Assembly (NCBI RefSeq): GCF_900105155.1 | Contig: NZ_LT629762.1 | Location: 4,120,501 to 4,184,500 of the forward strand | Direction: 5' to 3' | Origin: Pseudomonas prosekii | GTDB taxonomy: Bacteria > Pseudomonadota > Gammaproteobacteria > Pseudomonadales > Pseudomonadaceae | Length of the DNA: 64,000 nucleotides | Part shown: positions 16,791 through 39,496 of the stretch, in pieces | Position numbering within the stretch: the first letter of the stretch is position 1 | Layout: every line of letters starts with the position of its first letter | Notes under the pieces: generated by a model | The model's database searches: none | Seen by the model: the letters and a program-made list of their open reading frames with translations, nothing else | Told to the model about the DNA's origin: nothing | Made by a program: the position numbers and the translations under genes

Positions 16791-16806
16791 TCACGCGTGC
16801 AGGCAC

Positions 16807-16846: not shown

Positions 16847-16899
16847 TTGAATAACACGGGTTACCACACCCGGTCGCTGAATTGGCAGCGACGGTGGGG

Positions 16900-17143: not shown

Positions 17144-17239
17144 ATGACAGATATCTGGAACCAGCGTCAATCGGCTGCCTCTGCGAAGGATGCGGTAGAA
17201 CGTCTGCTGGCCCCATCTGCTTTGTCTGCAACCTTATGA
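17144..17239 (+). CDS. 31-residue leader ORF before the ImmA/IrrE gene
   Basis: A 31-codon ORF (starts MTDIWNQRQSAAS) with an excellent AAGGAGAAAGGC ribosome site and a stop overlapping the next ATG (ATGA). It gives the downstream regulator no independent ribosome site, so the peptide's translation probably sets that of the antitoxin. It is unrelated in sequence to the NPxK leader peptides. It could instead be the relic of a larger gene. Confidence 0.5.
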   Translation: MTDIWNQRQSAASAKDAVERLLAPSALSATL

Positions 17240-22800: not shown

Positions 22801-24126
22801 TTGAGCGGCTACGTGCCAAACGCGCCCAAGGGCCTCCGCTACAGCGGTGTAGAACCTGAAGACACTCATGCCCGGCGTTGGGCTGAGTACAAGGACATTC
22901 CCACCAAAGACCACCCCAAACCAAACAGTTTGGGATGTGTGTTCGCCAAGAGCTGCGATCTGCCTGACGGTGTGATCGATCACAAAAAGCCGTCTGGCTT
23001 CATCCCTGTTGAGAAGGTAGGCAATTACGGTGAGTTAGCCATTCTCGGTGGCCATGAAACGGACGCACAGGGAAACATTCCACTCAAGAAAATCAGCGGT
23101 TCACTACCTGCAACGCTGGGAACACTTATTTTAGGCGGGGTTGCCGCATCAGCCGCTACTGTCTCCTGTGGTGGTTTGTGCACTGCTGGTGCTGCTGTAG
23201 CCACTGAATCTGCTGCAACTGGGGCGGCTGGTGGAACCGGGGTTCTCACTGCGGGTGTGGCTGCAGGTACTTTGGCAGGTATTGTTGCCATGATGTGGCC
23301 GTCGAGCCTGGGCGATAGCAGCCTGTATACAGACGAGCAGCTCAAATCCCTTAAAGAAGGCCGCACACGCGTTCGGATACATGTCGAACAGCAAGCAGAT
23401 GGCACCTTGAAGGGATACGGGTACAACACTCAGAAGCGCGCCGACTGGGAGATGATTCCGGTGGTGCAATTCGTTGAGCAAAGTTCTCAGCAGGTGGCAG
23501 ATTTTGGCAACGGGGTAACGCTGATTTGGACGCCAGCCATTGACCCATCCAGCACCTCAGGAATTCCACCGTTAGAGGGCGCACCCCAAACACCCCAAAT
23601 ATGGATTTATCCGCCTACGGAACAGGCAGATAACATCATCGTCAGCCCGATCTACCCCGATGAATACAAAGACTTCATCCTTGTGTTCCCGCCTGACTCC
23701 GGTATCTCGCCGCTATACATCGTTATCAGTGCCCGTCATGCGCCGGGGATAGCTACAGGGAGGGGCGAGGATGTAACAGGTGTCTGGCTCGCAGATGCTA
23801 GTGTCGGGCTAGGTGCGCCGATCCCTACGCGGATAGCGGACGCATTGCGAGGCCAAAGTTTCGGAACGTTCGATAGCTTCAGGCGGGCTTTTTGGAAAGC
23901 TGTAAGTAACGATCCGGAGTTACTCAGCCAACTGAGCGAGGACGATCAGGCGCGTGTGCTAACTGGTAATGCGCCTACGGTTCGATTCAGAGATTCGGTA
24001 GGAAAACGAGTGACGTTCGAAATACACCATGTCGAACGAATCGTAGACGGTGGGGCGGTGTACGACGCGGATAACTTGAGGGTGAATACTCCACGAAACC
24101 ACATTGACCTTCACAAGAGAAAGTAG
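22801..24126 (+). CDS. Short S-type pyocin-like HNH DNase
   Basis: A 441-residue bacteriocin-like protein. The N-terminal ~100 residues are polar, the next ~65 are Ala/Gly-rich and hydrophobic (near 105-165), a strand-rich pyocin-S-like domain follows (about 175-330), and the C-terminal ~110 are a colicin E-type HNH nuclease ending in FEIHHVERIVDGGAVYDADNLRVNTPRNHIDLHKRK-like order with HH, N and H-x3-H in place. The start is TTG with AAAAGGA eight bases before. At 441 residues it is shorter than E colicins or pyocins S1/S2, and no separate receptor-binding domain is evident. An immunity gene follows by seven bases. Confidence 0.82.
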   Translation: MSGYVPNAPKGLRYSGVEPEDTHARRWAEYKDIPTKDHPKPNSLGCVFAKSCDLPDGVIDHKKPSGFIPVEKVGNYGELAILGGHETDAQGNIPLKKISGSLPATLGTLILGGVAASAATVSCGGLCTAGAAVATESAATGAAGGTGVLTAGVAAGTLAGIVAMMWPSSLGDSSLYTDEQLKSLKEGRTRVRIHVEQQADGTLKGYGYNTQKRADWEMIPVVQFVEQSSQQVADFGNGVTLIWTPAIDPSSTSGIPPLEGAPQTPQIWIYPPTEQADNIIVSPIYPDEYKDFILVFPPDSGISPLYIVISARHAPGIATGRGEDVTGVWLADASVGLGAPIPTRIADALRGQSFGTFDSFRRAFWKAVSNDPELLSQLSEDDQARVLTGNAPTVRFRDSVGKRVTFEIHHVERIVDGGAVYDADNLRVNTPRNHIDLHKRK

Positions 24127-24133
24127 GCACAAC

Positions 24134-24388
24134 ATGGAAGATATTTCTGATTTTACCGAAGTCGAATTCATCGCCTTCATCAAAAACATACGAGTCGTTA
24201 ACAAGGGCGGCACGGACGATGAGCTAGGTGAATTGCTTGTGCAGTTCAGCAAGCTCGCGGGCCATCCAGATGGTTACGACCTTATTTTTCACCCAGAACC
24301 CGGTGCAGACAACTCTGCCGAAGGTATCACTAAGACGGTGAAGGAATGGCGCGCTGCTAACGGGCTATCGGCATTCAAAGAGGACTGA
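24134..24388 (+). CDS. Colicin E/pyocin DNase immunity protein (Im9-like)
   Basis: An 84-residue acidic protein. FTEVEFIAFIKNI near the start, LVQFSKLAGHPDGYDLIFHPEPGADNSAEGI in the middle and VKEWRAANGLSAFK at the end match the four-helix Im2/Im9 pattern, including the conserved helix III tyrosine pair equivalent (HPDGYDLIF). It should bind and block the HNH domain of the upstream pyocin. It is cotranscribed with it. Confidence 0.9.
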   Translation: MEDISDFTEVEFIAFIKNIRVVNKGGTDDELGELLVQFSKLAGHPDGYDLIFHPEPGADNSAEGITKTVKEWRAANGLSAFKED

Positions 24389-24716
24389 TTCAGATCCTGG
24401 CCCATTACGCGACGTTAGCTGCCAGACCACCCGGTAAATGCTGCGTTTATTCAGAAGGATTGCAACATGCACGGATTGGGGTAGGGCGCACTGGTGGCAA
24501 CAGCGGCAGCAGACAGTGCATTCACGCTCGCGTTAATGCACCCGATCCCCCTGCAAGGGAGGTGCATCCGTTTCGCGGACGACTCTCTGTCGCGACCGGC
24601 AGATAGCGGCCAATAACGGACAGTGACCGGTATTTGTGGTTTAGGAGCCGTTCGAATGCGCCGAACGTGGCAGGCCGAAATCGGCGAGAATTTTTTAATG
24701 GTGAAACGCGATCGAG
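24389..24716. other. Intergenic stretch with degenerate repeats
   Basis: A 328-base gap between the immunity gene and the convergent GGDEF-EAL gene. ATGCACGGATTGGGG at 24466 runs into TAG at once. The segment around 24585-24640 resembles a common Pseudomonas intergenic relic (GACTCTCTGTCGCGACCGGCAG). No terminator with a T-run is clear. Confidence 0.45.
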
Positions 24717-26726
24717 CTACTTGCGCTCTCGCTGTACATACCACTGCGTGAACGCTTCGGCACTTACCGGTCGGCAGACATGAAACCCTTGGGCCATGTC
24801 GCAATGATAATCGCCCAGCGCATCGAGCACGTCGGCAGTTTCTACGCCTTCAGCAATGACCGTCATGCCAAGGTTGTGACCCAGATCGACGACGCTCCGT
24901 ACGATGAGCTCGTTGGCTTGATCGCTTTGCATCGCCAGTACAAAGGATTTGTCGATCTTGAGTTCGCTGATGGGCAAATCCTTCAACTGAGCCAGGCTCG
25001 TGTAGCCGACGCCGAAATCATCGATGGCGATGTGGATGCCCATCCCATGTAACTGTCTCAGGATGGTCCGGGCCGCGTAGGAATCGAGCATGATCGCGGA
25101 CTCGGTCACTTCGAGCATGAGCATGTTCGGCGTCAGATTATAATGCTCAAGCAGATCGATTATCTGAACCACCAATTTGTCGTCCAGCAGGTTGCGTGCA
25201 GAAATGTTCACGGCGACCGGTATGCATAGCCCCGCATCAATCCAGGCCCGCGCCTGGGACAGCGCGAGGTTCAGCACGTATTGAGTCAGGGTGCCGATGA
25301 TCCCGGTCAATTCGGCAAACGGAATGAACTCATCCGGATTCACCAGGCCGCGCACTGGATGCTGCCAGCGCACCAAGGCTTCGACGCCAGTCACTTTTCC
25401 TGTGCTCAGGCTGACCTTGGGCTGGTACTCCAAGAACAATTCGCGGCGCTCCAGACCTCGCCGTAGTTCGCCAAGCATGGCCAGGCGTTCCGGAGAACGC
25501 CGATCCGTTCCCGGGTCGTAGGCGAGGACACACTTTCCCTGTTTTTTGGCGGCATACATAGCGATGTCGGCACGCTGCAGGAGCGTCGATGGATCGTCAC
25601 CGTGCAGCCCGGACACCACTACCCCGAAGCTGGCCTCGACATCCAGTTCGACCCCATCGATTTCGAACGCTGCGGTAATCGCCGTATGCAGCCGTTGCGC
25701 TGCTTTCAACGCGCCTTCCAAGCCTTCGACGCAGGGAAGCAAAATTGCAAACTCATCGCCACCCAACCGGGCGACCGTGTCGATTTCCCGAGCTTCGTTG
25801 ATCAGTCGCTTGCCGATCAGGTCGAGCAGGCGGTCTCCATAGTGATGCCCCAGGGTGTCGTTGACTTCCTTGAACCGATCCAGGTCAATAAGCAACAGGC
25901 CCGTGGTTGACCCTTGGCGACGGCCAAGGCGCATCGCCTGCTCGAAACGGTCCGCCAGCAGTGTTCGGTTGGCGAGCCCTGTCAGCTTGTCATGCAACGA
26001 AGCGTGCAAGGCGTTCTTGCGTTGACTGTCGAGTTCGAATCGTGTGCGCCGCAGCACTTCGGCGAACAAGCCGGCCAATAGCAGTCCCGCGATAAAAACG
26101 ATGGGCGTGGTACTGGCGTTGAAGGACTCCCGTGAACGCAGCTTCTCCAGCGCCACGATCGACTCCTGGTGGTGAGCGGCTGCTGCTTGCAGGACGGCGT
26201 TTTCAATCTTTTCGAACAGCGGGTCGGCCTCCTCGCTGTCAATGCGGCGCGCCCGCAAGGCATCTCCATGATCTACGGCATCGAACATTTTGTAGATGCT
26301 TTCCAGATAGGGAGTCAGTGACGTGCGAACATCCTCGACAAGCAGATGGTCGGGAGGCGTTCCGGAGCGGTGAACACGCTCTAGCGCAGTGCCGAGTTGA
26401 GCTAGGCTATCGTTGAAGTTATGCAATATGGAAGGCCCGGGGTCCAGCCGATACTTGTGTTCTAAAGACTCGAGGGCCAGCACGGCAGTCGCAGCCGCTG
26501 AGTAGTGGTCAGACAGAACGCTCGAGGCAATCGCCTGCTCCCCCAGACGTCCGGTGGTAATGGAAGACCATACCGCGAAGCTGCTAATTACTAGCAGCAC
26601 GCCAACCAGACCATGGCGCGCCCACTTACTGGGAATTGCTTTACTCCAACGGAGGAAATTAGGCGTGTCACTCACTTGCACAAGGGTTTCAGGAACCTGC
26701 GAACCTGCCGGCGGTAAATTGCTCAT
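24717..26726 (-). CDS. Membrane-bound GGDEF-EAL protein (c-di-GMP turnover)
   Basis: A 669-residue inner-membrane protein. Transmembrane segments near 38-58 and 205-225 flank a periplasmic helical sensor. The GGDEF domain (about 240-400) has RLGGDEFAIL intact with an I-site RxxD (REID) five residues before it. The EAL domain (about 415-665) has EALVRWQHP, VNISARNL, LEVTES, DDFGVGYTSL, LKIDKSFV and AEGVET, all catalytic residues present. Both synthesis and breakdown of c-di-GMP are thus possible. The ATG follows GAGGTAAC. It lies divergent to the BdlA-like receptor, across an 850-base AT-rich gap, as element cargo. Confidence 0.88.
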   Translation of the reverse strand: MSNLPPAGSQVPETLVQVSDTPNFLRWSKAIPSKWARHGLVGVLLVISSFAVWSSITTGRLGEQAIASSVLSDHYSAAATAVLALESLEHKYRLDPGPSILHNFNDSLAQLGTALERVHRSGTPPDHLLVEDVRTSLTPYLESIYKMFDAVDHGDALRARRIDSEEADPLFEKIENAVLQAAAAHHQESIVALEKLRSRESFNASTTPIVFIAGLLLAGLFAEVLRRTRFELDSQRKNALHASLHDKLTGLANRTLLADRFEQAMRLGRRQGSTTGLLLIDLDRFKEVNDTLGHHYGDRLLDLIGKRLINEAREIDTVARLGGDEFAILLPCVEGLEGALKAAQRLHTAITAAFEIDGVELDVEASFGVVVSGLHGDDPSTLLQRADIAMYAAKKQGKCVLAYDPGTDRRSPERLAMLGELRRGLERRELFLEYQPKVSLSTGKVTGVEALVRWQHPVRGLVNPDEFIPFAELTGIIGTLTQYVLNLALSQARAWIDAGLCIPVAVNISARNLLDDKLVVQIIDLLEHYNLTPNMLMLEVTESAIMLDSYAARTILRQLHGMGIHIAIDDFGVGYTSLAQLKDLPISELKIDKSFVLAMQSDQANELIVRSVVDLGHNLGMTVIAEGVETADVLDALGDYHCDMAQGFHVCRPVSAEAFTQWYVQRERK

Positions 26727-27577
26727 GCGTTACCTCACGTAGTCGTGAATGATTCCATTCTTATTGGCAATTTCCACCAAAATTTAAGTTTAGACGAAGA
26801 ATGCAATTAACGCTGAAATGCTGCGAAATTTTTCGCATGATATTCATTGCAATTAATAATAACTATTTGATAAGAGTCATTTATTAATAGTTTTTATTTA
26901 GATTAATTCCAACCCCCAAAACCTATTTTGTCTACGCCATGGATTCTATTGGACTTAAGCCGTATTCTGGAGACCAACGGACAAACGGACCGAATGCGAC
27001 TCTCATTCTAGAACTGCAAGTTATTTCTTATAATTTATTCCGTTGATATTTGAACTGAGGATTTTTGGAAACATTTCCGTGAGTTGTCATCCTGTATTTT
27101 TTCGTAATAAGTTAATTACGCATAGTCCTCTACTGATAGAAAAATTTTCCGAGGATGAAAGAACTCCTAAAAAGCACTATTCCCTCCCACCGACTGTACT
27201 AAAATGCACGGATCCAACCAGAAATATCGTGAGCGCCTCCAAAGTCTCAGCTGATTCATTAATGAGTTTTTACCCATTTAATGAACTCTTTGACTGTCCC
27301 GACATCGGCATTTCGCCGAAATGCTATTTTTCGCGGAGGGCGGGTGTGGGTCGGTTGCAGCCCTTCGCCACGAGCAGCAACCGGCCAGAAGCAGCCTTTC
27401 GAGGAGGGCAGATTTACTCATTTCAGTAAAAATATGGCAATAATGCGAACGTTTGTGGTGGGGGACGTCTTTTCTCAGTCTAATGTCCAAAGCAGATATT
27501 TTGCGCTATACATAAAGCTTCATGCAGGAAAAATAAATACATAGCCTAGTACCAGCTGAATATCAAGGACGTTAGTC
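26727..27577. other. AT-rich divergent intergenic region
   Basis: An 851-base stretch of markedly low GC between two divergent signalling genes. It must hold both promoters. The 27345-27405 segment (GGTCGGTTGCAGCCCTTCG...AACCGGCCAGAAGCAGCC) is a recurring Pseudomonas intergenic relic also seen near 29755-29815. A 128-codon frame at 27043 lacks a ribosome site and family traits. Confidence 0.5.
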
Positions 27578-28888
27578 ATGTTTAATAGCGCTATAAGAAA
27601 TGAACTAGAGCAAAACAAAAAAGAGTTAGCGATCTATAAGCAGATAATTGATGCGCTTAATGAGGAAACCATGGCGCTGACAGTTGACGAGAACTTTATA
27701 ATTATAGATGCTAATTCAAAGTTTCTCAGCGAGCTTGGTTACACTAGTAAAGATATAGGCCGCCCTCTCGGCGAGATTGTTCCGGCCTACGTGGTGGACT
27801 TGCCATGTTATAAAAATTTACGTAGCGCTGTAAAGAACGGAACTTCGGTTAGTGATAACTATCGTTTTTTACATGGCGACGGTAGCTTGGCATGGATAAG
27901 AGGTGTCTGGCAGCCTATCCGAGACGCAAGTGGGAAATTAATAAATATAAAATGTTTTGGGAATATCATTACCAATTCGATGAATTTAGCACGTGAAAAT
28001 GAGGCATTGATAAGCGCATTGTCCCGCTCGACTGCAGTGATTGAATTCGATCTTAATGGTGTGGTATTGAGCGCGAATGAACCATTTTTGAGAGTTATGG
28101 ATTACAGAATTGATGAGATCAAGGGGAAACATCATAGGATTTTTTGTGAGCCTGAAGAAACGTCAATGCCGGCTTATACTGAGTTTTGGAACTCACTCAA
28201 TAGGGGGCAGTTTGCCACCGGTCGCTTCAAACGTATCAATAGCCATGGCGCTACCGTATGGCTAGAGGCCTCATACAATCCTGTGTATGACGCACAAAAC
28301 AAACTCTATAAATTCGTGAAATTCGCCACGGTCATCACTGATCAAGTGAATCGCGAAGCAGAAGTCAATGACGCAGCTAGTATCGCTTACGAAATATCCC
28401 AGAAAACCGATGCTACTGCTCAGGAGGGAGCCTCGGTAGTTCGAGAAACTGTCGACACGATGCAGCGTATATCAAAGGTAATGCTCTCGGCTTCTCAGGG
28501 TATCGAGGATCTGGGCAAACAATCTCTGCTTATTAGCTCAATGGTTCAAACTATTGGAAGCATCGCACAACAAACAAATCTATTAGCGCTTAATGCTGCG
28601 ATAGAAGCTGCTCGAGCAGGAGAGCAAGGTCGAGGGTTTGCAGTGGTCGCCGATGAGGTTAGGCAGTTAGCGGGGCGTACTAGCGCTGCAACAGAAGAGA
28701 TTGTCACTGTTGTGGGCAAGAACCAAGACTTGGTAAATAAAGCGATACAGGACATGGCAAGCAGTAAGCAACAAGCGGAGCAAGGTCTGAAATTAGCGAA
28801 CCAAGCGGGCTTGGTTATCGTTGAGATTCAGGAGGGTGCAAAGCAAGTGGTGAGCGCAGTAGGTCGTTTCGCCAGTCAGCTTAAATAA
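27578..28888 (+). CDS. Soluble PAS-PAS methyl-accepting protein (BdlA-like)
   Basis: A 436-residue cytoplasmic chemoreceptor. It has a PAS domain (about 25-130), a second PAS domain (about 145-255, with the PAC-like [18 protein letters not shown]), and a short MCP signalling domain with the hairpin tip [37 protein letters not shown]. No transmembrane segment is seen. Size and layout match BdlA (417 residues in P. aeruginosa), which links c-di-GMP to biofilm dispersal. AAGGAC precedes the ATG. The coding region is AT-rich compared with core genes, a sign of transfer. Its GGDEF-EAL neighbour makes a c-di-GMP role plausible. Confidence 0.85.
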
Positions 28889-28947
28889 AGGCTGTAGGGG
28901 CCAAACTCATTAGCGTCACGTTCACCTATTTTAACGTCGCTTTTGTC

Positions 28948-28989
28948 AAAAAGGCTCCTACACTTAAATTAGAGGTAGGGCCTTTTTTA
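28948..28989 (+). terminator. Terminator after the BdlA-like gene
   Basis: An imperfect AAAAAGGCTCCTAC/GTAGGGCCTTTTTT hairpin ending in six T residues. Confidence 0.65.
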
Positions 28990-29088
28990 GGTCTGACCGG
29001 AAAGCAGGCTGCTGACAAGGGATTCACCAGCCCCCCCACATAACGGCTCTACGCACGTCCATCGCTCACGTAAGAAGGAAATTACGCT

Positions 29089-29628
29089 GTGTCACTTACT
29101 CTCGATCCAGAAACTCAACAGGCATTTGAGAAACTGATGATTGCCGCTCAGAACGACACCAAGCAGGGCCGCATGGTAGCCAGTTTTCTATTCACCTTGT
29201 GGAACGCCGGAAGGGATGTTCGCTCCGCCGTGACCGACTTGTGGGGGTTGGATCCAGAGATCACCCGCGCATGCGCCCAGCTATTTACGTGGCTGAACAA
29301 TAATAAAGTTTTCGCCGAACAATTTGGCAGCCCGGGCGCCAGTGGAAGCGCTGTCCAGCGCTTGGCAAGGTGGAGTATGACTTTAAATCGCGATTTGGCG
29401 TCGCCGGTGGATGATAGGGCGACAAGCAATTTTGCGCTGGGACTGTGGAATGACAGGTGGCTTATGAGTGACGAAGCCGTACGCTGTAGTTATTGCCTGG
29501 CCACCCAATTGCCCAGCAATGCCCACGTTCCGTTGGAACACTGCGATGGCTGTGAGATTAGCGACTTTCACTACCCGTTGCGGGATCTGGCGGCGATCCT
29601 AGGGACTGCGTTCGGCGACTCTGCCTGA
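29089..29628 (+). CDS. Hypothetical protein, DUF7673-like N-terminus, CxxC motifs
   Basis: A 179-residue protein. The start (SLTLDPETQQAFEKLMIAAQNDTKQGRMVASFLFTLWNAG) resembles small proteins common on Pseudomonas islands (DUF7673). The C-terminal part has CSYC near 137 and CDGC near 157, which could bind zinc. Starts at GTG 29089 with AAGAAGGA nearby. It is convergent with the MvaT-family gene. Function unknown. Confidence 0.5.
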   Translation: MSLTLDPETQQAFEKLMIAAQNDTKQGRMVASFLFTLWNAGRDVRSAVTDLWGLDPEITRACAQLFTWLNNNKVFAEQFGSPGASGSAVQRLARWSMTLNRDLASPVDDRATSNFALGLWNDRWLMSDEAVRCSYCLATQLPSNAHVPLEHCDGCEISDFHYPLRDLAAILGTAFGDSA

Positions 29629-29675
29629 ATGACGTGTTTTCCAATCAGGCGTTACCAATAACGTCGCTTATGTTC

Positions 29676-29716
29676 AAAAGGCCCCCAAACTTATGCCAGG
29701 TGCGGGGGCCTCTTCG
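29676..29716 (+). terminator. Probable terminator after the 29089 gene
   Basis: AAAAGGCCCCC ... GGGGGCCTCTT stem-loop with a weak T-run. AACGTCGCTT precedes it, as it does the terminator at 28948. Confidence 0.5.
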
Positions 29717-29919
29717 TGAGCCTCCGTTCAATCATCGGAATGAGAGGTTCGTGTGCGGTCTCGCGAAGGGCAGCTTTTGGCCGATAGCAGCCTTTCGCGA
29801 AGGTCGATATGGCCGAAGACTTTCGTTAATCCCTCTCGCGGGGAAAGCTATAATTGCGGAACATTGTCGCCACCAAGCTATCAGACAACGTGGATATTTT
29901 TGGGTTATGGGCCAGCAAC

Positions 29920-29945
29920 AAAAAGGGCCCGACTGGGCCCTTTTT
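29920..29945 (-). terminator. Terminator of the mvaT-like gene
   Basis: A symmetrical AAAAAGGGCCC/GGGCCCTTTTT hairpin 16 bases beyond the mvaT-like stop, with T-runs in both directions. Confidence 0.85.
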
Positions 29946-29960
29946 CAGGTGAAGCTATTT

Positions 29961-30326
29961 TTACTTCTTCAGCCATCCCTCGACGACGTCGGCGCCGTGT
30001 TCTTCTTTCCACTCTTTCAAAGCTTTGTGATTCCCACCTTTGGTTTCGATGACTTCACCGGTATTCGGGTTTTTGTAGATCTTCAGTTCGCGTGGCTTGC
30101 GTATGCTGGCGGCCGGAGCTGCGGCTTGGCGACGAGCCGTTGGCTGCGGATCCAACAAATTGATGATGTGCTTCAGGCTGAAGCCATAGTGCTCGAGCAG
30201 CTTGCGCAGCTTTGTGTCGAACTCGATTTCTTTCTTCAGACCTTCATCACCTTTCAGTGCTTCCAGTGCCTGGAGTTGCTCGGCGAGATGTTTTTCCAGT
30301 TGGCGAAATTCTGCGATTTTGGACAT
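29961..30326 (-). CDS. MvaT/MvaU-family xenogeneic silencer encoded on the element
   Basis: A 121-residue protein with an N-terminal coiled coil (about 3-60; FRQLEKHLAEQLQALEALKGDE), a linker, and the C-terminal DNA-binding domain with the signature KNPNTGEVIETKGGNHKALKEWKEEHG. These bind AT-rich DNA and replace H-NS in pseudomonads. It is diverged from chromosomal MvaT in the oligomerisation domain. AAAGGA precedes ATG 30326. On this element it could silence the AT-rich cargo or modulate host MvaT by forming mixed oligomers. Confidence 0.88.
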   Translation of the reverse strand: MSKIAEFRQLEKHLAEQLQALEALKGDEGLKKEIEFDTKLRKLLEHYGFSLKHIINLLDPQPTARRQAAAPAASIRKPRELKIYKNPNTGEVIETKGGNHKALKEWKEEHGADVVEGWLKK

Positions 30327-30395
30327 TGTGTTTCCTTTGCTCAGAGTGGTCATGCGTGGTTATTAAGATAGGTTGTGCTCGTTACAAAATCAGCG

Positions 30396-30584
30396 CTATT
30401 TCCGGCGATTCAGCTGGCTCTCAATATGCGCCATTTCCGCGTTAATCGCGTTGATGGTCAGTGTTTGTATCTGATTGGTTTGACCCGCTCCCGCGTTAAT
30501 GGTCTTTAGCAGGGCATTGAGGTAAGCCTTCCGAGTATTGAGTGTGTCAGACCAGCTCGCGCTGTTCTGTAGTGGCTTGTTCAT
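30396..30584 (-). CDS. Small hypothetical protein of the replication operon
   Basis: A 62-residue helical protein (starts MNKPLQNSASW). ATG 30584 is preceded by AAGGA at a normal distance; two further upstream in-frame ATGs are worse. It overlaps the end of the coiled-coil gene by 38 bases in another frame, typical for compact phage-type operons. Function unknown. Confidence 0.5.
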   Translation of the reverse strand: MNKPLQNSASWSDTLNTRKAYLNALLKTINAGAGQTNQIQTLTINAINAEMAHIESQLNRRK

Positions 30585-31491
30585 TGTGTTCATCCTTGCG
30601 TTGTTCTGCATTGCTCAGATCTTCGGGCTGTCGCGGTATTGGCAGACTGTTGAGCTGGACTAAGTCCCGCGCGCTGTATTGACGAGAGCGGTCTATTAGC
30701 TCGTGCCACCCCCACCGCCCATGATTTTCGCCTCGCTCGGGTACGGCCAGTTTCATAAGCCCTACCGGGTCATGTCCCAGCAGGTTGTAGTTGGCCCACA
30801 GCTTGCCACCCACCTCTAACAACGCTTTTGCGGCCTCGTTCCATTGCTCCTCCAGCACTGTCTGCGAAAGCCAGAGCGCGGTACGTTCTATCCCTTGATG
30901 CTTTTCTTGTGCTTCGGCGATGTATTTATCTACGGTGACCAGCTCCTGCTCCAGAGCAGCCATGATCAGGTGTTGCCGACGGTTATGTTCGGCGGCGGCT
31001 GTCAGATTCTTCGCGGCCTTTTGTGCGTCGGCGTTGGCGGTCTGCTCGCCTTCGGTGTCGCCCCAAGCGACGGCCTGCGCGTACGCAGTGGCTGCGTCCG
31101 TTTCGGCCTGACGGGCTTTGGCCATGTCCTCAACTGCTTGTTGTTGGATCTGTGCCAGGCGGGTGCTGAGGCTCTGCCGCTTTTCGTTGAGCTCCTGCTC
31201 ATCCGCTTTCCAGTTATCCATCGCCTCGATGTAACCCACCATCAAGGAATCGCAATTGGCGAGGTCTTCACGGCGGATGATCTTCCGATTTAGAAGATCG
31301 GCATTGTTGTTGCGGGAATCAAAATTCCGTTTCAGCTCGTCGTACTTGTTCCGTAGTTCGCGCTTGCGATCCGGCTCGATGAGGTCTTCACTTTCCAGTA
31401 CGGCCTCAAGTGGCAGCATTTCGGCGTGCAGTCGTTCTGCCTCGCTCAGCAGTTGGTCGCGACTGTTTTTCAGCTCTTGAATCTCGTTCAT
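30547..31491 (-). CDS. Coiled-coil protein of the element
   Basis: A 314-residue protein that is almost all heptad-like coiled coil over residues 1-200 (NEIQELKNSRDQLLSEAERLHAEM; KRQSLSTRLAQIQQQAVEDMAKARQAETDAATAYAQA), then a short globular end with WGWHELIDRSRQYSARDLVQLN. AGGCAAGACAA precedes the ATG weakly. It follows the primase-helicase by 93 bases in the same direction. No family recognised; a structural or replication-accessory role is possible. Confidence 0.6.
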   Translation of the reverse strand: MNEIQELKNSRDQLLSEAERLHAEMLPLEAVLESEDLIEPDRKRELRNKYDELKRNFDSRNNNADLLNRKIIRREDLANCDSLMVGYIEAMDNWKADEQELNEKRQSLSTRLAQIQQQAVEDMAKARQAETDAATAYAQAVAWGDTEGEQTANADAQKAAKNLTAAAEHNRRQHLIMAALEQELVTVDKYIAEAQEKHQGIERTALWLSQTVLEEQWNEAAKALLEVGGKLWANYNLLGHDPVGLMKLAVPERGENHGRWGWHELIDRSRQYSARDLVQLNSLPIPRQPEDLSNAEQRKDEHNEQATTEQRELV

Positions 31492-31584
31492 TTGTCTTGC
31501 CTCTGTCTAATTCGAATGTGGGTTGGTTGCATGGCTGGCGAGGCCGGGAATCAGCCGGCGCTACCTCGATCAGCAGAGATGCCC

Positions 31585-34491
31585 TCAGGCAGCCCGAGCC
31601 TCGCTCTCAGCCAATCCCGGAATTGTTTTCACGATGTAGCAGCGTTGCGTGCCCAAACCGGGTAACCGGATCAAACTCGACGCTTTGCCATCGCCTCCCG
31701 GTTCCAGTACGCCGCGCTGTAGCAGTTCCTTGTTCACGGCATTGATGTTCATCCCTCGGAAGATCTCCGAGCGCCATGCTTCGGGCAGCACGTAGTAGGT
31801 GTTGGTGGTGTGCAGGGCGTCACCCAAGCCGTGCTCCAGCGTCTTGCGAAAACCGAGGCGGTCGATGGTGCGCGGGCCGTGCTCGTCGATTTTTGCCGCC
31901 GCCGATTCCCAGCGGGTGAAACGGCTTTCGCCGAAGCGCTCGATGACCTGGCGCAGCCGCGCCAAGATCGCATCACCTTCAAAGTTCCCGGCGCCGCCAC
32001 GCTCATTCATCCAGGCGTTGAGGCACACGCGAGCGGCGGTGGTCGCAGTTCCATCAGGCCAGCCAGTGATCCCCATCGCCGTGGCCAGCTCACCTGCTGC
32101 GGCCGCGAGGCCGAAGCGAGCAGCCGCGCGGTGTGCCTGCCCACTGGCCGAGGCCGGTAGTGACTGGGCGATAAAGCCTTCCAGCGTGTGGCGCAGGATG
32201 GCGGACCAACCGTGACGTTTGCCCGGTTCGCACAGCGCGGTCAAAAAGGCAGTAAGCGGTGTGCCGTAGTATTTGGCTACCCGTGCTTTGAGGGCGTCGG
32301 CGAGTGCCGCCGCATCCTCAAAACCGTTGAGTGCGTCGAACATGCCGAGGCCTTTGCTCGCATCGGCCGGGACCGCGAGCATGCGTACTTCCATGCCCGC
32401 TTTCAGCTCCTTGTTGGCTTCGGCCATGTGCTGAGCCAGTGTCTTCTCGCCGGTGGAGAGAAACAGCAAACGCCACTCCTGTACCTGTCGGCCTGCTTGC
32501 CCTCGATCATTGGCGCGTGCCTTGCCGGTGCCGTTGCCGAGCATGTACACCGTCTCGCCAATGATGCGCGGATCGCACATGCCGATTTCATCGAGCACCA
32601 GAAGGCCGTCGGAATGCGCGGCGGCGATGGATTCCAGCGCGTTATCCGTAGAGCGCCACGAACGTACCAGACGCGGCCCGCCGTAGATCGAGGCGGCGAC
32701 TTGCAGGTGCGTGGTTTTGCCGCCTGAGCTGTCGCCGTACAAGTGGAAGCCGCCCGACTCATGGCCGAGCATGTGCAGCAGCGGCCCCGCAAAGGCCACG
32801 CCGACGACAAACGCCAGACGATGGTTGCCGATGCACAAGGCGCCGATCTGCTCTTGCCACTGCTCAAGGGAGCCTGCTTCGCTGATCGGCGGAAGCTGAG
32901 AGCCCGCCTCGTAGAAGTGCAGGTGTTCGCTGTGCGCGCCGACCTGTTGCTCGGGCAGCAGAAACGCGCTGTCATGCCAGCCCAACCGGGTAACCAATCG
33001 TGCCCGTTGCGCGCTGTCGAAACCGCCGAGGTAACTTTGCAGGTCGTTGCGTGCATTGCGCCCTGACCGACTACCGGCAAGACGCAGACCCATGTCCACC
33101 AGCGGGCCGAGTACATCCTTGCCGAAGTCGCCGGTCATGGTGCGCGCCGGAATGTTCCAGCGTTTTTTTGCGCCGTCGGGGTCGTCGAACTCGACCAGCA
33201 GACCCCAGTTCTGGCCTTTGTCGTCGCGGGTACGAGCCAGGATTTCCAGAGGCGAACACACCGGCCGCGCCTCGCCATCATCGCCGGAATAAAATACACC
33301 CTCTGACGTGAGGCGAAAGCCACCGGGCATCAGGTCATTTTTCGGTTTGGCGGGACGCTTGGTGGCTATTTTTGTCTTCGGTTCCGGCTTGGTTTCGGCC
33401 TGCTCAGGCTCCGTCTTTTGGATATCCAAACCGAACAGTTCTCCGCTGCTTTCCAGCTCGGCGAAGTGCGCCGCCGTCCAGCCTTTAGCGAGCGCATCGG
33501 CGGCGTCGTCGCCTTCGTCCCATTGACCACCTTTGGCAAAGGCAGCGCGTTCGTTCTTCAGCGTGGGCTTGCGTTTGAACACTTCCAGCGCGATGACTCG
33601 AACCGAGGCGGCGCCGATTTCGCGCAGCTTGTCGGCGACGGCTTCCATGCAGGCTTTGCCGCTGGCGTCGTTGTCTGGCCACAACAATACGTCGCGGCCG
33701 TTGAGCGGTGTCAGGTCGGCTTTGTGCCAGGAGTTGGAACCGTTCGGCCAGCAGGTGGCCACGTAACCGGGCATCAGTTCTGCGGCGGCATCGGCAGCTT
33801 TCTCGCCTTCGCAGAGAATAACCGGTGCGTCACTGCGCCGGGTCAGTTCGTCAAGGCGCAGCAGTGGACGCGGATCCGGCAGGCCCTGCCAGCGCCATTG
33901 CGTGGTCTGGCCATCGGCACGCTGACACCATGTCAGGGGTGCAAACACCTTCTTCGTTTTGCCGTCCTCGTCAAGGGCGAGGTCGAAGCGGTAGAGCGCC
34001 ATGAGCGGTTGGCCTTGCGCATCACGGTAGATCCACACCTTGGACGGCGCGCCGTGCTGCCGGTGCTTGACCAGGCACTTGTTCATGGCCTCAGCCGGGA
34101 TCGGCTGAATGGCACTCCACTCAGGCGCTTTCGACTTGGCGGGCGCGGGATTTGAGTTGGCGGCACCGGGCGAAACTTTGAGCAGGTCTGCCAGTTTGTT
34201 GCAGGCCTCGACGTCGGTGCCGCCGTCCAGATAGCGCACCAAATCGATCAGGTCGCCACCCTTGTCGCCGGTGGCGAAGTCGGCCCACGTGCCTTTGCTC
34301 AAATTGATCTTCAGCGAACCGGCGCGCTTGTCGCTGCGGGTCGGATTGGGAGCGGTGTATTCCTTGCCGCCGTCCACACGCTTGCCATTGGGCAGCAAGT
34401 GCGACAGCACACGACCAATATCTTTCAGCGCGGCGCTTTTCACATCAGCAAAGCTCGGGCGTTTCACGGAGTTGCTTGGGCGTTGGCTCAT
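31585..34491 (-). CDS. TOPRIM-DUF927 primase-helicase (P4 alpha-like)
   Basis: A 968-residue replication protein. The N-terminal ~100 residues are a primase-type zinc-less domain (GGKEYTAPNPTRSDKRAGSL), followed by a TOPRIM domain (VILCEGEKAADA near 222 and LLWPDNDASG near 262), then a DUF927 helicase domain with Walker A GDSSGGKTTHLQ near 590 and Walker B-like LLVLDEIGM near 650. The enzyme should prime and unwind element DNA, like alpha of phage P4. The ATG overlaps the DUF3077 stop by ATGA, so its expression follows the RNA-controlled leader. Confidence 0.85.
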   Translation of the reverse strand: MSQRPSNSVKRPSFADVKSAALKDIGRVLSHLLPNGKRVDGGKEYTAPNPTRSDKRAGSLKINLSKGTWADFATGDKGGDLIDLVRYLDGGTDVEACNKLADLLKVSPGAANSNPAPAKSKAPEWSAIQPIPAEAMNKCLVKHRQHGAPSKVWIYRDAQGQPLMALYRFDLALDEDGKTKKVFAPLTWCQRADGQTTQWRWQGLPDPRPLLRLDELTRRSDAPVILCEGEKAADAAAELMPGYVATCWPNGSNSWHKADLTPLNGRDVLLWPDNDASGKACMEAVADKLREIGAASVRVIALEVFKRKPTLKNERAAFAKGGQWDEGDDAADALAKGWTAAHFAELESSGELFGLDIQKTEPEQAETKPEPKTKIATKRPAKPKNDLMPGGFRLTSEGVFYSGDDGEARPVCSPLEILARTRDDKGQNWGLLVEFDDPDGAKKRWNIPARTMTGDFGKDVLGPLVDMGLRLAGSRSGRNARNDLQSYLGGFDSAQRARLVTRLGWHDSAFLLPEQQVGAHSEHLHFYEAGSQLPPISEAGSLEQWQEQIGALCIGNHRLAFVVGVAFAGPLLHMLGHESGGFHLYGDSSGGKTTHLQVAASIYGGPRLVRSWRSTDNALESIAAAHSDGLLVLDEIGMCDPRIIGETVYMLGNGTGKARANDRGQAGRQVQEWRLLFLSTGEKTLAQHMAEANKELKAGMEVRMLAVPADASKGLGMFDALNGFEDAAALADALKARVAKYYGTPLTAFLTALCEPGKRHGWSAILRHTLEGFIAQSLPASASGQAHRAAARFGLAAAAGELATAMGITGWPDGTATTAARVCLNAWMNERGGAGNFEGDAILARLRQVIERFGESRFTRWESAAAKIDEHGPRTIDRLGFRKTLEHGLGDALHTTNTYYVLPEAWRSEIFRGMNINAVNKELLQRGVLEPGGDGKASSLIRLPGLGTQRCYIVKTIPGLAESEARAA

Positions 34492-34760
34492 GCGTCAGCC
34501 CTCGACAAAAACAGCGCGTCGTTGATGTCGTCGATCAGGGCTTTGGCCATCTCGCCGAGGTACAGAGCAGGCCAACTGAAACGGTCACCTTGGTCGCTCA
34601 TGGCAGCGTCGAAGTTGAGCTGGTTAGCGTGATGCTGGAGCAGGGAAACCATCTCCAGTGCATCCTCGACCGGAACACCGGCATTGACCCGAAACAGCTT
34701 CAAATCGGTGGCATTTACGCGAGTGAATGTGGCGTGGCCACGGGTGGTGGAAGTGGTCAT
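34488..34760 (-). CDS. DUF3077 family protein
   Basis: A 90-residue protein with the family core LKLFRVNAGVPVEDALEM (near residue 20) and LYLGEMAKALIDDINDAL (near 66). It overlaps its neighbours on both sides by ATGA. The same family forms the output of the orphan module at 16.2 kb. Function unknown; position equals that of the small early genes before P4 alpha. Confidence 0.75.
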   Translation of the reverse strand: MTTSTTRGHATFTRVNATDLKLFRVNAGVPVEDALEMVSLLQHHANQLNFDAAMSDQGDRFSWPALYLGEMAKALIDDINDALFLSRADA

Positions 34761-35041
34761 AGCGCACCGCCTTTTTGCATGGCAGGCGTCGAGGTGTTGT
34801 CAGCGTGCAAAGCGAGGGTTTTGATCAGGCCGAGGGTGCCGCGTACGTCCCAAAGGACGGCTGCGATCACATGATTGGCGAGGCGCGAGGATTCGTTTTC
34901 GAAGTGCTCCTCAAGCAGCGTCAGCACCGAGTCGGCGCGAGCAATGGCGCAGGTGATGGCGTCGATCGGTACACCGGCTTCAACAGTTGGATTAACGCAT
35001 AGCAAATCTTCAGGAAGTGAAAAGCTCAAGGCGTTGTTCAT
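34757..35041 (-). CDS. Hypothetical protein, distant DUF3077 look-alike
   Basis: A 94-residue helical protein with LLCVNPTVEAGVPIDAIT near residue 13, recalling the V-x-AGVP-x-DA core of the DUF3077 proteins, followed by NHVIAAVLWDVRGTLGLIKTL. It may be a diverged duplicate. The ATG overlaps the stop of the 53-codon leader ORF. Confidence 0.6.
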   Translation of the reverse strand: MNNALSFSLPEDLLCVNPTVEAGVPIDAITCAIARADSVLTLLEEHFENESSRLANHVIAAVLWDVRGTLGLIKTLALHADNTSTPAMQKGGAL

Positions 35042-35199
35042 TGGGCACCGCCTGCGGTTTCGAGTGCGCGGGCTTTGGCCATGTGAGCGTTGTAACGGGA
35101 GAGGCGCGTAGCGAGGCTGGAGTTGGCGTGTAAAGCGGCGAGAGCCATTGCACGATGTGCAGCGGCGCGATTTTTGAACGGATTGAGGGCGTGTTGCAT
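35038..35199 (-). CDS. 53-residue leader ORF of the replication operon
   Basis: A 53-codon ORF (starts MQHALNPFKN, ends TAGGAQ) with ribosome site AAGGAG nine bases before the ATG. The site lies in GTACAAGGAG, perfectly complementary over ten bases to the loop of the antisense RNA upstream. Its stop overlaps the next start (ATGA), so blocking this site should shut down the whole operon down to the primase. The NP-(Y/F)-K core is shared with the 38-codon ORF at 16.6 kb. Confidence 0.7.
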   Translation of the reverse strand: MQHALNPFKNRAAAHRAMALAALHANSSLATRLSRYNAHMAKARALETAGGAQ

Positions 35200-35253
35200 T
35201 TGTGAAGGCTCCTTGTACTGAGGAACCGCCACCGTCTGCCGCCAAGCAGATTA

Positions 35254-35337
35254 GGGTGACGGATTGCGCAGGATTGGCGGACCGGCGTACAAGGAGACCG
35301 GCGCACCCGAGGGTGCTCCTACGCAACCCGCCATAAC
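35254..35337 (-). ncRNA. C4/P4-CI-like antisense RNA of the element
   Basis: On the minus strand the outer stem GCGGGTTGCG pairs with CGCAATCCG..., enclosing a hairpin GCACC-CTC-GGGTGC and a second hairpin GCCGGT...GCCGGT-type with loop CTCCTTGTAC (35287-35296 on the plus strand as GTACAAGGAG). The loop pairs perfectly with the ribosome site at 35209-35218, and eight of its bases pair with GTACAAGG at 35393-35400 beside the antiterminator. This two-target layout matches phage P4 CI RNA. The 16707-16790 copy has the same fold with covarying stems. Confidence 0.7.
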
Positions 35338-35353
35338 ACGGGAATGCGGGCAC

Positions 35354-35394
35354 AAAAAAAGCGCCTGCAATCGTAATGGGGGCGCTGTTGCGCC
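35354..35394 (-). promoter_or_regulatory. Leader attenuator: overlapping antiterminator and terminator
   Basis: GGCGC-AACA-GCGCC (35381-35394) and the terminator GCGCC...GGCGC (35361-35385) with seven T residues (35354-35360) share an arm and exclude each other. The antisense-loop target GTACAAGG abuts the first hairpin. Confidence 0.65.
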
Positions 35395-35446
35395 TTGTAC
35401 TGTTTGGACCGCCAAGCCCAATCGCTGAATTTGCAGCGACGACCAG

Positions 35447-35475
35447 AGAGTAACGTCCGATTTTTGAAAGTGCAA
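35447..35475 (-). promoter_or_regulatory. Promoter of the RNA-controlled replication operon
   Basis: Minus-strand -35 TTGCAC (35470-35475) and -10 TACTCT (35447-35452) with a 17-base spacer. A TCGCTG/CAGCGA hairpin (35421-35440) follows at the expected transcript 5' end. The leader is about 240 bases to the first ORF, the same as in the 16.9-kb module. Confidence 0.65.
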
Positions 35476-35881: not shown

Positions 35882-36486
35882 GCTGCCTCCTGCGCCAAGG
35901 CAAACAGCGGCGCTGGTGTTTCGCCTTTGAGCCAAGCCAGTATCTTGCTGTCCTCGGCGCAACGTCGGCGGTATTTGACGGCCATCACATCGCGACGTTG
36001 TGCCAGACATTCGTCCACGTACTCGGTCAGATCCGAGGTCAAGCGCAAGCTGTGGTGAAGGTTCTCGGTAGCGGTCTTTTCCACTGCGAGATCCGCATCC
36101 GTAATGCGCTGCCAGACCGCCGGATCGTTCGCGTATCCAGCCGATTGATCCACCAGCCAGTAGGTGACCCAGTCGGTTATACCTCGCGTTTTCAGTGAGG
36201 CGAGGCGGCTATGGCTCATCGCGAAATAACCGGTGCCGTGGACGCTCGAAAATTCTCTGCGCACCGCGTTTTTGCGGATCAGTTCGGGGAGTTCCCAAGG
36301 ATTGGCTTTCAGCGGTAGAACGAGGCCGTCAGGGCTGAAAAAGAACGCTTCCTGCTCTTCGCCGTTCCAACTCAAGCCCGCGATGGTCCGATGACGCCAG
36401 TTGATAGCGCCGGGTTGATAGAGGCGGAATCCGATGCTGTACGAGTCGAGAAACGGCCCTTTGAAAGGGCAATAATTGCGCTTCAT
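35878..36486 (-). CDS. Hypothetical element protein
   Basis: A 202-residue soluble protein (starts MKRNYCPFKGPFLDSYSIG) with repeated aromatic residues in the first half and a helical, basic second half (EYVDECLAQRRDVMAVKYRRRCAEDSKILAWLKG). It overlaps both neighbours by ATGA, so it is coexpressed with AlpA. No family recognised. Confidence 0.6.
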   Translation of the reverse strand: MKRNYCPFKGPFLDSYSIGFRLYQPGAINWRHRTIAGLSWNGEEQEAFFFSPDGLVLPLKANPWELPELIRKNAVRREFSSVHGTGYFAMSHSRLASLKTRGITDWVTYWLVDQSAGYANDPAVWQRITDADLAVEKTATENLHHSLRLTSDLTEYVDECLAQRRDVMAVKYRRRCAEDSKILAWLKGETPAPLFALAQEAA

Positions 36487-36737
36487 GCGGCCACCAAATC
36501 ACGCGCAGCGATGCGCGCTCGTGTCCATGCCTGTACCTCTCCCAATACCCATGCAACCGGAGCACTTCGGGCGTTGCTGGTACTCAGCTTCACTGGAAGC
36601 GGAAATCCACTCTCAGGTTGGCGCATGAGCTTGTAGATAGTCGGGCGAGCAAGCCCAACGATTGATACCACCTCGGGCATGCGGATGAGAGTCGTGGCGG
36701 GGTCGTGTGAAGCAAGGTGTCTTATTGCGGTAGTCAT
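36483..36737 (-). CDS. AlpA-family transcriptional regulator
   Basis: An 84-residue small winged-helix/HTH protein with the family core LIRMPEVVSIVGLARPTIYKLM and the later WVLGEVQAWTRARIA. AlpA-type proteins usually activate or act as excisionase for integrases of P4-like elements. It is the first gene of an operon with two unknowns and lies between the integrase and the replication module. Confidence 0.88.
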   Translation of the reverse strand: MTTAIRHLASHDPATTLIRMPEVVSIVGLARPTIYKLMRQPESGFPLPVKLSTSNARSAPVAWVLGEVQAWTRARIAARDLVAA

Positions 36738-38004: not shown

Positions 38005-39246
38005 TCATACTGCCTTTCCAAACTGTCCCTGCACCACATTACCCGCTGCCATTTGCTCAAGGTGGTCGGCATACCACTGCATCATCACAACACGCTGTTC
38101 AAGATATTGAGCCTTGTTATATACCCCTGAAATACCTTCCTCTTTGTGGGCAAGCTGCGCCTCAACGTGTTCTTTAGGCCAGCCATGTTCGCGAAGCAAC
38201 GTGCTCGCTGTGTGGCGAGTCCCGTGTCCAACAAGACGACCTTTGTAGCCTATGGTGGCGAAAACCTTGTTGATTGTGTTTTCACTAATGGTCGGATTTT
38301 TTGCTCCGACTCCTGGGAAGAGCCAGCGGTTGCGACCGGTTAAGCAGTACAGCTCTTTCAGTGCCGTAACGGCTTGGTGAGGAAGCGGGCATACAAAATC
38401 CCGGCGCATCTTCATCTTGGCAGCAGGTGTGATCCAAATGGCTTTCTCAAAGTCGAATTCTTTCCATTCAGCCAATCGAACCATGCCGGGTCGTGATGCA
38501 GTCCATATACAAAGCCATGCAGCGGTGCGGGCTGTCAGTCTGCTTGGTGTGTTTCTGAGCGCTTGGAGGAATTCAGCCAGCTCAGGCTCCAGCAAATGTG
38601 GATGCTGCTGGGTCTTAGGAGCCTGTGCTGCAATATCACGTAGGCGGCTGCCCGGATCGTTTTCGGTGAGCCCTAGGCCAATGGCTCGGCCGAAGATTTG
38701 ATTGATCCAAGTGCGGCACTTTTCCGCCACGTTGTGTGCGTTTCGGGCTTCGAGGGATGCCTGGAGTTCTGCGCAGTCGGTACGGGTGATTTCGTCGAGG
38801 GGCTTATCCCCCAATGCCGGGAGGATGTCCTTGTCGAGGTAAGTGCGGATTTTGTTAAGAGTGGAGGGAGCGAGGCCTTTTTCTTCTTTGGCCTTGAGCC
38901 AAGCTTCAGCAGCAGCTCTGAAGGTCCGAGTCCTGGCAGCGTCAATGGCAGCTTTGGCGGAGCGTTTCTGCTCGAGAGGATCGGCGCCGCTGCTAACTAC
39001 CTTGCGTAGTTCGGCAGCTTTGTCCCGTGCCAACGCACCACTTACTTCTGGGTAACCCCCGAGCCCCATCCAAGCCCAGTTGCCCGTCGGACGTTTGTAG
39101 CGGAGCTGCCAAGATTTTCCACCATCAGGTTTAACCCTGAAGTAGAGGCCGTTGCCGTCCAGTTCTCGGTATTCCTTTGATTCCGGCTCCAATCCCGCAA
39201 GTGTTGTGTCAGCGAGAGGGCGACGCTTGATGTCTGCGCGCTTCAT
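38005..39246 (-). CDS. int: Tyrosine integrase (P4-type, DUF4102 arm-binding N-terminus)
   Basis: A 413-residue site-specific recombinase. The N-terminus (GLYFRVKPDGGKSWQLRYKRP) is the arm-binding domain of P4-type integrases, followed by a core-binding domain (about 95-185) and the catalytic domain with R in TASRPGMVR, HGTRHTAST, LAHKE and the nucleophile in YNKAQYL. ATG 39246 gives the usual family start MKRADIKRRPLAD; a longer frame to 39342 reads through subterminal repeats and is rejected. It lies 165 bases from the tRNA-Leu gene in which the element sits. Confidence 0.93.
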   Translation of the reverse strand: MKRADIKRRPLADTTLAGLEPESKEYRELDGNGLYFRVKPDGGKSWQLRYKRPTGNWAWMGLGGYPEVSGALARDKAAELRKVVSSGADPLEQKRSAKAAIDAARTRTFRAAAEAWLKAKEEKGLAPSTLNKIRTYLDKDILPALGDKPLDEITRTDCAELQASLEARNAHNVAEKCRTWINQIFGRAIGLGLTENDPGSRLRDIAAQAPKTQQHPHLLEPELAEFLQALRNTPSRLTARTAAWLCIWTASRPGMVRLAEWKEFDFEKAIWITPAAKMKMRRDFVCPLPHQAVTALKELYCLTGRNRWLFPGVGAKNPTISENTINKVFATIGYKGRLVGHGTRHTASTLLREHGWPKEHVEAQLAHKEEGISGVYNKAQYLEQRVVMMQWYADHLEQMAAGNVVQGQFGKAV

Positions 39247-39277
39247 CCTTGTATCCCAAAGTTCGGTATTTTTCTCA

Positions 39278-39325
39278 GGATACAAGCAGGGATACAGGGA
39301 TACAACGGATAAAGGGATACAGGGG
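39278..39325. repeat. Subterminal GGGATACA repeats
   Basis: Four GGGATACA/GGATACA units; the first two, GGATACAAGCAGGGATACA (39278-39296), recur at 20824-20842 inside the other end. Likely integrase or AlpA/Xis binding sites. Confidence 0.6.
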
Positions 39326-39340
39326 TAGATAGCCAGACAC

Positions 39341-39367
39341 AAAAAAACCGGCTCAAGTGGCCGGTTT
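39341..39367 (-). terminator. Element-supplied terminator of tRNA-Leu
   Basis: AAACCGGC-CACTTGA-GCCGG and seven T residues on the minus strand, 44 bases after the tRNA 3' end. It replaces the terminator moved to 20.7 kb. Confidence 0.8.
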
Positions 39368-39411
39368 CTCTGGGTCTGATAGTCTGGTAGAGACTTTCAG
39401 ATACTGCTATA

Positions 39412-39496
39412 TGGTGCCCCGAGGGAGACTCGAACTCCCACTTCTTGCGAAAACGGATTTTGAATCCGCCGCGTCTACCAATTCCGCCATCAGGGC
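39412..39496 (-). tRNA. tRNA-Leu (CAA)
   Basis: An 85-base tRNA with acceptor GCCCTGA, D-arm GCGGAATTGGTAGACGC, anticodon loop TTCAAAA (anticodon CAA, reading UUG), a long variable arm, T-loop GTTCGAGTC and encoded CCA. The type-II variable arm and G at the discriminating positions fit leucine. Its 3' end is the attachment site of the element. Confidence 0.95.

Follow-up and report, generated by a model that had tools for sequence, protein, structure and literature searches.

The leader of a replication operon in the analysed stretch of Pseudomonas prosekii DNA (the window, 64,000 nucleotides) carries an antisense RNA of the C4 family together with four sites that pair with it, and related modules form an array across Pseudomonas genomes. 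Taken as a whole, the data are probably best explained by a C4 module of the P1/P7 type that silences the replication operon in the manner of phage P4 and that has been multiplied as cassettes with distinct pairing codes. The focal locus is a new member of the known C4 family; what appears to be a new variant is the Pseudomonas array, with its recurrent gene partners and swapped codes. The sequence, the fold, the four-site pairing and the joint change of loops and targets are direct observations, and the P4-style immunity switch that the initial annotation had read into this leader is supported, with repression, termination and immunity as its predicted consequences.

Analysis of the minus strand placed the C4 antisense RNA (RF01695) at 35252–35338, where the Rfam model scores 82.8 bits against a gathering score of 45. 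The RNA folds with a minimum free energy of −46.2 kcal/mol (z −4.84), and none of 200 shuffles was equally stable. The initial annotation had described a three-stem RNA at this position and had suggested a search with the Rfam C4 model; the stable fold and the model match both bear it out. Upstream on the same strand lies the c4-a1b1 motif (RF03163, 35401–35453, 49.5 bits against a gathering score of 46.7), which contains the pairing site b1 and the 5' hairpin that had also been proposed. Computation of the possible pairings revealed that the a' loop of the C4 RNA, CTCCTTGTAC, forms ten Watson-Crick pairs with the site a2, GTACAAGGAG (35209–35218, minus strand), which covers the Shine-Dalgarno sequence of ORF1 (ATG at 35199), and eight with the site a1, GTACAAGG (35393–35400, minus strand). 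A second arm, b' (CCGCCAA), is complementary to TTGGCGG, a seven-base sequence present on the minus strand at both b1 (35409–35415) and b2 (35239–35245). The ten-base pairing with the ORF1 ribosome site was found as annotated, and so was the eight-base pairing, with the correction that a1 does not abut the antiterminator and instead overlaps the first two bases of its arm. When both flanks were base-shuffled 20,000 times, a match of at least 8 arose upstream in 0.415% and one of at least 10 downstream in 0.02% of the shuffles, and the two never arose jointly. Among 120 loops of other C4s set against the focal flanks, one attained 8 upstream and none attained 10 downstream. A chance origin of the pairing is ruled out by these shuffles together with the permutation tests described below. 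The dinucleotide GG at positions 7–8 of the RNA is invariant in all 21 C4s of this genome.

The leader in front of the C4 RNA contains promoter-like and terminator-like signals, all on the minus strand. A promoter-like element, TTGCAC-N17-TACTCT, was read from the sequence at 35447–35475, and a motif of the same type stands at other C4 loci: TTGnnn-N17-TAnnnT occurs within 200 bases upstream of the C4 in 80 of 121 loci, against a mean of 4.9 and a maximum of 13 loci after base-shuffling, and 73 of these 80 sites lie 140–111 bases before the C4. Other spacings (14–16 and 18–20) yielded 1–18 sites each, and the N17 motif was not found upstream of 41 of the 121 C4s, including 7 of the 21 in this genome. 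An antiterminator-like hairpin, GGCGC/GCGCC (35381–35394), and an intrinsic-terminator-like hairpin followed by seven T (35354–35386, from sequence reading and a script search) have the GCGCC arm in common. The minimum free energy structure of the leader includes the antiterminator and lacks the terminator, and without the C4 the leader folds weakly better than its shuffles (z −1.47, with 22 of 200 as stable). A consensus scan of the minus strand listed neither a promoter nor a terminator at the focal leader; the terminator is absent from it because its loop of 15 exceeds the limit of 8 set in the tool. Of the initial reading of this region, the promoter with a 17-base spacer holds as a recurrent motif and not as a listed consensus promoter, and the two hairpins with their common arm exist, with the terminator missing from the lowest-energy fold. 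With gene types assigned by N-terminal patterns, the script detected a terminator at 9 of the 121 loci, comprising 7 of the 10 whose leader ORF is coupled, the second C4 locus of the window (c05), and 1 of 74 of the DUF6124 type. The terminator is therefore an apparent trait of the satellite-type subclass.

The genes behind the leader form a coupled operon on the minus strand. It consists of ORF1, a 53-aa leader ORF (35038–35199), ORF2, which encodes 94 aa without a Pfam match (34757–35041), ORF3, a DUF3077 gene (34488–34760, 81.7 bits), and a primase-helicase gene (DUF927, 31585–34491). From their coordinates, consecutive genes overlap by four bases each, which agrees with the coupling by ATGA overlaps first proposed, and the DUF927 match establishes that the operon reaches a primase-helicase, within an integrase/AlpA element that resembles the satellite phiAH14b. 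The AlpA-like regulator or excisionase is encoded at 36483–36737 and the tyrosine integrase at 38005–39342, both on the minus strand, the latter adjoining a tRNA-Leu (39412–39496). An ORF1-type leader ORF is also present in c03, c06, c07, G062_04 and phiAH14b. PADLOC, run on 10 proteins, returned a single partial match, to the primase (30.4 bits).

Integrase, AlpA and primase-helicase, the genes expected of a P4-type satellite, are all present, and an attachment pair was not found. There is no exact same-strand 14-mer copy of the tRNA end in the window that could mark a left attachment site, no second copy in the window when as many as 3 mismatches were allowed in 20 bases, and no 9-mer copy in 24001–31500. 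The right edge near 39412 was set by the end of homology with six relatives (L243, L245, L246, L248, L250 and L253), which falls at 39408–39412. The tRNA-Leu(caa) at 39412–39496 is apparently a common insertion site, and by coordinates a C4 lies about 4–14 kb from tRNA-Leu(caa), on the same side, in at least 10 of 59 genomes. Genome G062 has the focal element too, with an unchanged loop and beside the same tRNA; the operon matches at 86.2% and the integrase together with the tRNA and flank at 88.9%. Elsewhere in the window, the gene at 22801–24126 resembles those of S-type pyocins and encodes a colicin/pyocin DNase domain.

The module closely follows the C4 RNAs of phages P1 and P7, in whose immI operon the controlled gene is the antirepressor ant. 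Common to both (RF01695, RF03163) are the three-stem RNA, the a' and b' arms, an upstream a1b1, an a2b2 over the ribosome site and a small leader ORF. The controlled genes differ: the focal operon comprises ORF2, DUF3077 and the DUF927 primase-helicase and has no ant, and the cassettes control DUF6124 or DUF3077 genes, with a Bro-N gene after c04 alone among the loci scanned in this genome. The CI RNA of phage P4 is described as an antisense RNA that is processed out of the replication-operon leader and pairs both up- and downstream (PMC4825925); by that description the focal locus is alike in its leader RNA before a replication operon and in its pairing on both sides, and is unlike it in having a Rho-independent terminator-like hairpin. 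The best phage-record match of the C4 leader is phiAH14b (KU708005, 76.5% over 82%), in which integrase, AlpA, C4 leader (89 bits), leader ORF and primase/helicase stand in the same order, with another loop code and different further genes. phiAH14b is described as a 16.8-kb element that is induced by mitomycin C along with a larger prophage and seemingly uses its capsids; the main text of that paper does not mention antisense, C4 RNA or noncoding.

A second complete C4 module (c05), spanning 16225–17000, was found in the window. Its C4 RNA lies on the minus strand at 16705–16791 (85.4 bits), with an a1b1 motif at 16853–16905, an isrK match at 16807–16892 that reaches the gathering score (50.0), and, 3' of the C4, a gene for a DUF3077 protein on the minus strand (16225–16542, 87.2 bits). 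At 17236–18866, a DUF4411 gene comes after one for an HTH/M78 peptidase, in a toxin-antitoxin-like arrangement. The a' loop of c05 is identical to that of the operon-type locus c01, and the b' arms differ. The initial annotation had the a' pairing right and had missed the b'/b1/b2 arm, this second C4 and the genome-wide array.

The isrK matches bear on a different reading, in which the short terminated a1b1 leader is the main regulator and either acts as a sponge for the C4 RNA or opens the ORF1 site, so that the module would serve mainly as an inducible ON switch. According to PMC4825925, the Gifsy-1 locus isrK-STnc1160-orf45-anrP makes a stable RNA from read-through, and IsrK supplied in trans raises anrP translation 139-fold via a coupled small ORF. 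The focal locus resembles it in its terminated leader and in the small ORF coupled to the next gene, and differs from it in its downstream genes and in an isrK score (RF01394) below gathering (42.6 against 50). Such activation finds support in the isrK model scores at c05 and, just short of gathering, in phiAH14b (48.8) and in the terminator at 7 of 10 leader-ORF loci; against it stands the near absence of that terminator, in the script search, from the DUF6124-type cassettes, although these keep the a1, a2 and C4 pairing. We consider it rather unlikely as the main mode of action, and because it is compatible with repression by C4 it is not a full alternative. The idea of two-level control, of termination and of translation, is not new, since CI-like termination control had already been raised for the very similar Gifsy-1 isrK locus (PMC4825925).

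Comparison of the operon-type loci of the genome (c01, c03, c06, c07 and c09) provided natural variants of the pairing. c03, c06, c07 and c09 have a common leader and four different loops; each loop pairs with its own leader over 8 bases upstream and 9–10 downstream, and with the other leaders over 3–5 on both sides. This joint change of the loop and both targets amounts to compensatory evidence from natural variation in favour of the pairing and indicates that both target sites matter. Operon identity is 81.6% between c07 and c09 (2,956 bases) and 90.0% between c03 and c06 (2,691 bases); among the sibling loci, the family scan beyond the first operon genes covered c09. At L019 and L020 (c11 and c12), a 1,231-base downstream stretch, perhaps an insertion element, is 99.9% identical.

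These loci are part of a large array. The genome (6.09 Mb, one contig) has at least 21 C4 matches, all over gathering, among the best 150 of 1,766 first-look candidates that were scored, which rules out an isolated C4. C4s over gathering were found in at least 137 of 149 sampled Pseudomonas genomes (this one included), and the matches at E≤0.001 per genome (n=138) number 1–5 in 34 genomes, 6–19 in 49, 20–26 in 22 and at least 27 in 33. On rescoring, the 33 richest genomes have at least 27 to at least 55 C4 matches each, and the fullest of them, G049, has at least 55, and 52 of these exceed gathering. Outside this family, one genome was sampled from each of 13 families of the order; at least two of these genomes carry a C4, with one match each. 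None was found in 14 control genomes. That the order contains C4 was known before, since the motif was listed in Proteobacteria by Weinberg and others (PMC2864571) and Pseudomonadales are among its carriers according to PMC5320573; no report of a Pseudomonas C4 array was found in the open-access literature. At six loci (L063, L070, L086, L097, L102 and L108), one or two extra, mostly weaker C4 matches lie 0.3–0.7 kb upstream of the main one, and these are therefore taken as tandem or decaying copies.

Most of the C4s checked stand in front of small genes of two families. By coordinates, a C4 stands no more than about 0.7 kb upstream of 6 of the 7 DUF3077 matches and of 9 of the 12 DUF6124 matches in this genome, one of the latter scoring under the Pfam cut-off. 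Other genes that follow a C4 here are Bro-N (c04) and unnamed small ORFs (c02, c20 and c21). In G049 and G062, a scan of 95 ORFs, with the second ORF taken behind a coupled leader ORF and 5 of 100 loci left out for want of a usable ORF, gave 66 DUF6124, 8 DUF3077 and 4 Bro-N. A C4 lies directly upstream in all 80 named Pseudomonas loci picked by similarity to one DUF6124 protein, the best 80 of at least 457 relatives, a sample that leans to the C4-cassette branch because the query protein came from a C4 cassette. We call the cassettes stand-alone because the ORF lists, over 2.6 kb in this genome and 0.7 kb in G049 and G062, show no long operon. Three DUF6124 matches in this genome, at 469 kb, 1915 kb and 2299 kb, have no Rfam C4 match nearby. 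The protein at 469 kb, a 373-residue open frame, matches both DUF6124 and DUF3077, the two matches overlap weakly in ORF2 of c01, and the profiles of the two families match each other weakly. AlphaFold models of DUF6124 (pLDDT 73.4) and DUF3077 (pLDDT 76.9, 5 sequences) had no PDB match at E≤0.001, and for this reason we claim no function for either family. At the N-terminus of DUF6124 proteins, MFK (residues 1–3) and TPNPP (residues 5–9) are invariant in 33 aligned sequences, and NP near the start is also frequent in the leader ORFs; going by these sequences, the motif may have a common role at the RNA or protein level.

Pairing between each loop and its own targets extends over the whole array. 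For the 21 loci of this genome, the summed self-pairing exceeded all 20,000 permutations both upstream and downstream; by duplex energy, the own target is the best one for 12 of 21 downstream and 4 of 21 upstream, and downstream pairing is weak at c10, c14 and c17. The named DUF6124 loci yielded 48 distinct loops (4 of 80 loops were unparsed and left out), for which the sum was 436.5 downstream, against a permutation maximum of 317.0, and 355.5 upstream, against 303.5. Over the 121 loci of three genomes, which include 45 of 47 G062 matches and 55 G049 matches (3 of them below gathering), and with the a' and b' stretches delimited by position, the pairing of a' with its own targets reached z 26.2 downstream and 18.0 upstream, and that of b' reached z 8.4–15.5. 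The best downstream target starts 30–39 bases past the C4 in 99 of the 121 loci. The own downstream region is unbeaten for 37 of the 121 loops and in the top three for 68, and the own upstream region is unbeaten for 21. By this crude score a single loop is often not exclusive, while the summed pairing is far from random. The stems covary as well: 19 of 26 pairs have changed on both sides among the 21 C4s of this genome, and none of 500 shuffles was as high, with the structure taken from the same alignment.

The match between loops and their own flanks bears on another reading, proposed for the Group 1 sRNAs of Acinetobacter baumannii, in which unrelated host mRNAs are the main targets and are reached in trans. 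The Acinetobacter RNAs are described in PMC5320573 as 21 C4-like RNAs in one genome with a variable a' loop and RNA-seq signs of processing at GGW, much like the at least 21 C4-type RNAs with variable loops found here; the accessible text of that paper proposes trans or phage targets and names none in the RNAs' own flanks. The Pseudomonas array differs in its own targets, its recurrent downstream families and its at least 55 matches in one genome. The many different loops per genome would suit action on host mRNAs; since the pairing of loops with the targets beside them far exceeds what permutation gives, we regard such action as very improbable as the main role.

Nearly all of the 21 C4s of this genome have a separate pairing code. 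Identical loops were found in 1 of 2,685 pairs within genomes and 7 of 4,575 between genomes, and because these raw counts are too few to tell, gene-matched pairs were used. When 183 cassettes from 49 genomes were compared in pairs with genes at least 85% identical, the loop was the same in 0 of 58 within-genome and 32 of 160 between-genome pairs (Fisher p 4e-5, with pairs that are not independent). This comparison omits 18 of 121 loci that lack a first ORF of at least 80 aa, and in it paralogous genes may appear younger than they are through gene conversion. At c12 and c14, for instance, the genes are 99% identical, the leaders 66% and the C4 stems 73%, and the loop identity depends on the aligner (15% by MAFFT, 53% by pairwise alignment with free ends).

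Where the same site could be compared between genomes, with flanks collinear for 300 bases or more to either side, the loop was the same in 8 of 13 pairs and different in 5 of 13; 74 of the 80 named loci entered this count, and some are in several pairs. A looser count (17 same and 42 different of 59) was dropped, as it mixed one-sided and within-genome pairs. In the clearest case, L124 and L128 occupy the same site, with flanks 90 and 93%, genes 97%, C4 stems 81% and loops 31% identical. Their Watson-Crick runs with their own targets are 7 upstream and 10 downstream in L124 and 7 upstream and 6 downstream in L128, and 4–5 across. In its leader module, L128 resembles L108 (88%) more closely than L124 (81%), which suggests that modules are exchanged.

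Distinct loops could also arise if the cassettes were decaying relics, set apart by age and drift and without selection for codes. The ORF after the C4 of c16 (L024) looks broken, some pairings are weak, and gene conversion can give paralogous genes a younger appearance than their leaders. Decay is at odds with four-site pairing that is kept while loops change, with the joint change of the loop and both targets beside a 97% identical gene in L124 and L128, and with the excess of loop sharing between genomes over that among paralogues, subject to the dependence of the pairs. Relics therefore seem an unlikely account of the array, and the codes look as if they are kept distinct within a genome.

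In the preferred reading, silencing by a P1/P7-type C4 module, one transcript from 35475 would carry b1-a1, then C4, then b2-a2 over the ORF1 ribosome site, and the C4 RNA would probably be excised by RNase P. Free C4 would bind b2-a2 on other transcripts through a' and b' and block ORF1, so that the coupled genes down to the primase-helicase would also be silenced, and pairing at a1 would remove two bases from the antiterminator arm, which should tip the balance towards the terminator. An incoming copy with the same code would then be silenced, which amounts to immunity, and an element with another code would escape. In the cassettes multiplied in Pseudomonas, each C4 may silence its own small DUF6124 or DUF3077 gene both in cis and in trans, and the gene would be expressed on arrival in a cell that lacks the code or when C4 falls.

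We tentatively propose, as a possibility somewhat short of probable, that these cassettes form an RNA-coded incompatibility system on the chromosome, of which satellites make use too. Many Pseudomonas genomes would then hold 20–55 distinct C4 cassettes, each made up of promoter, b1-a1, C4, b2-a2 and a DUF6124 or DUF3077 gene and each silencing itself and any incoming cassette or satellite of the same code. The codes would be swapped as a set by recombination while the protein stays unchanged, as in phage immunity or mating types. With a C4 RNA in a satellite-like element of Pseudomonas, the immunity groups of such elements may become readable from sequence. The array connects a phage immunity RNA to DUF3077 and DUF6124, families almost absent from the searchable literature (in the open-access literature no mention of DUF6124 was found and nearly none of DUF3077), and it offers very many natural compensatory variants of a single RNA-RNA pairing. 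Why dozens of mutually distinct small genes each stand behind their own antisense RNA is now a testable question.
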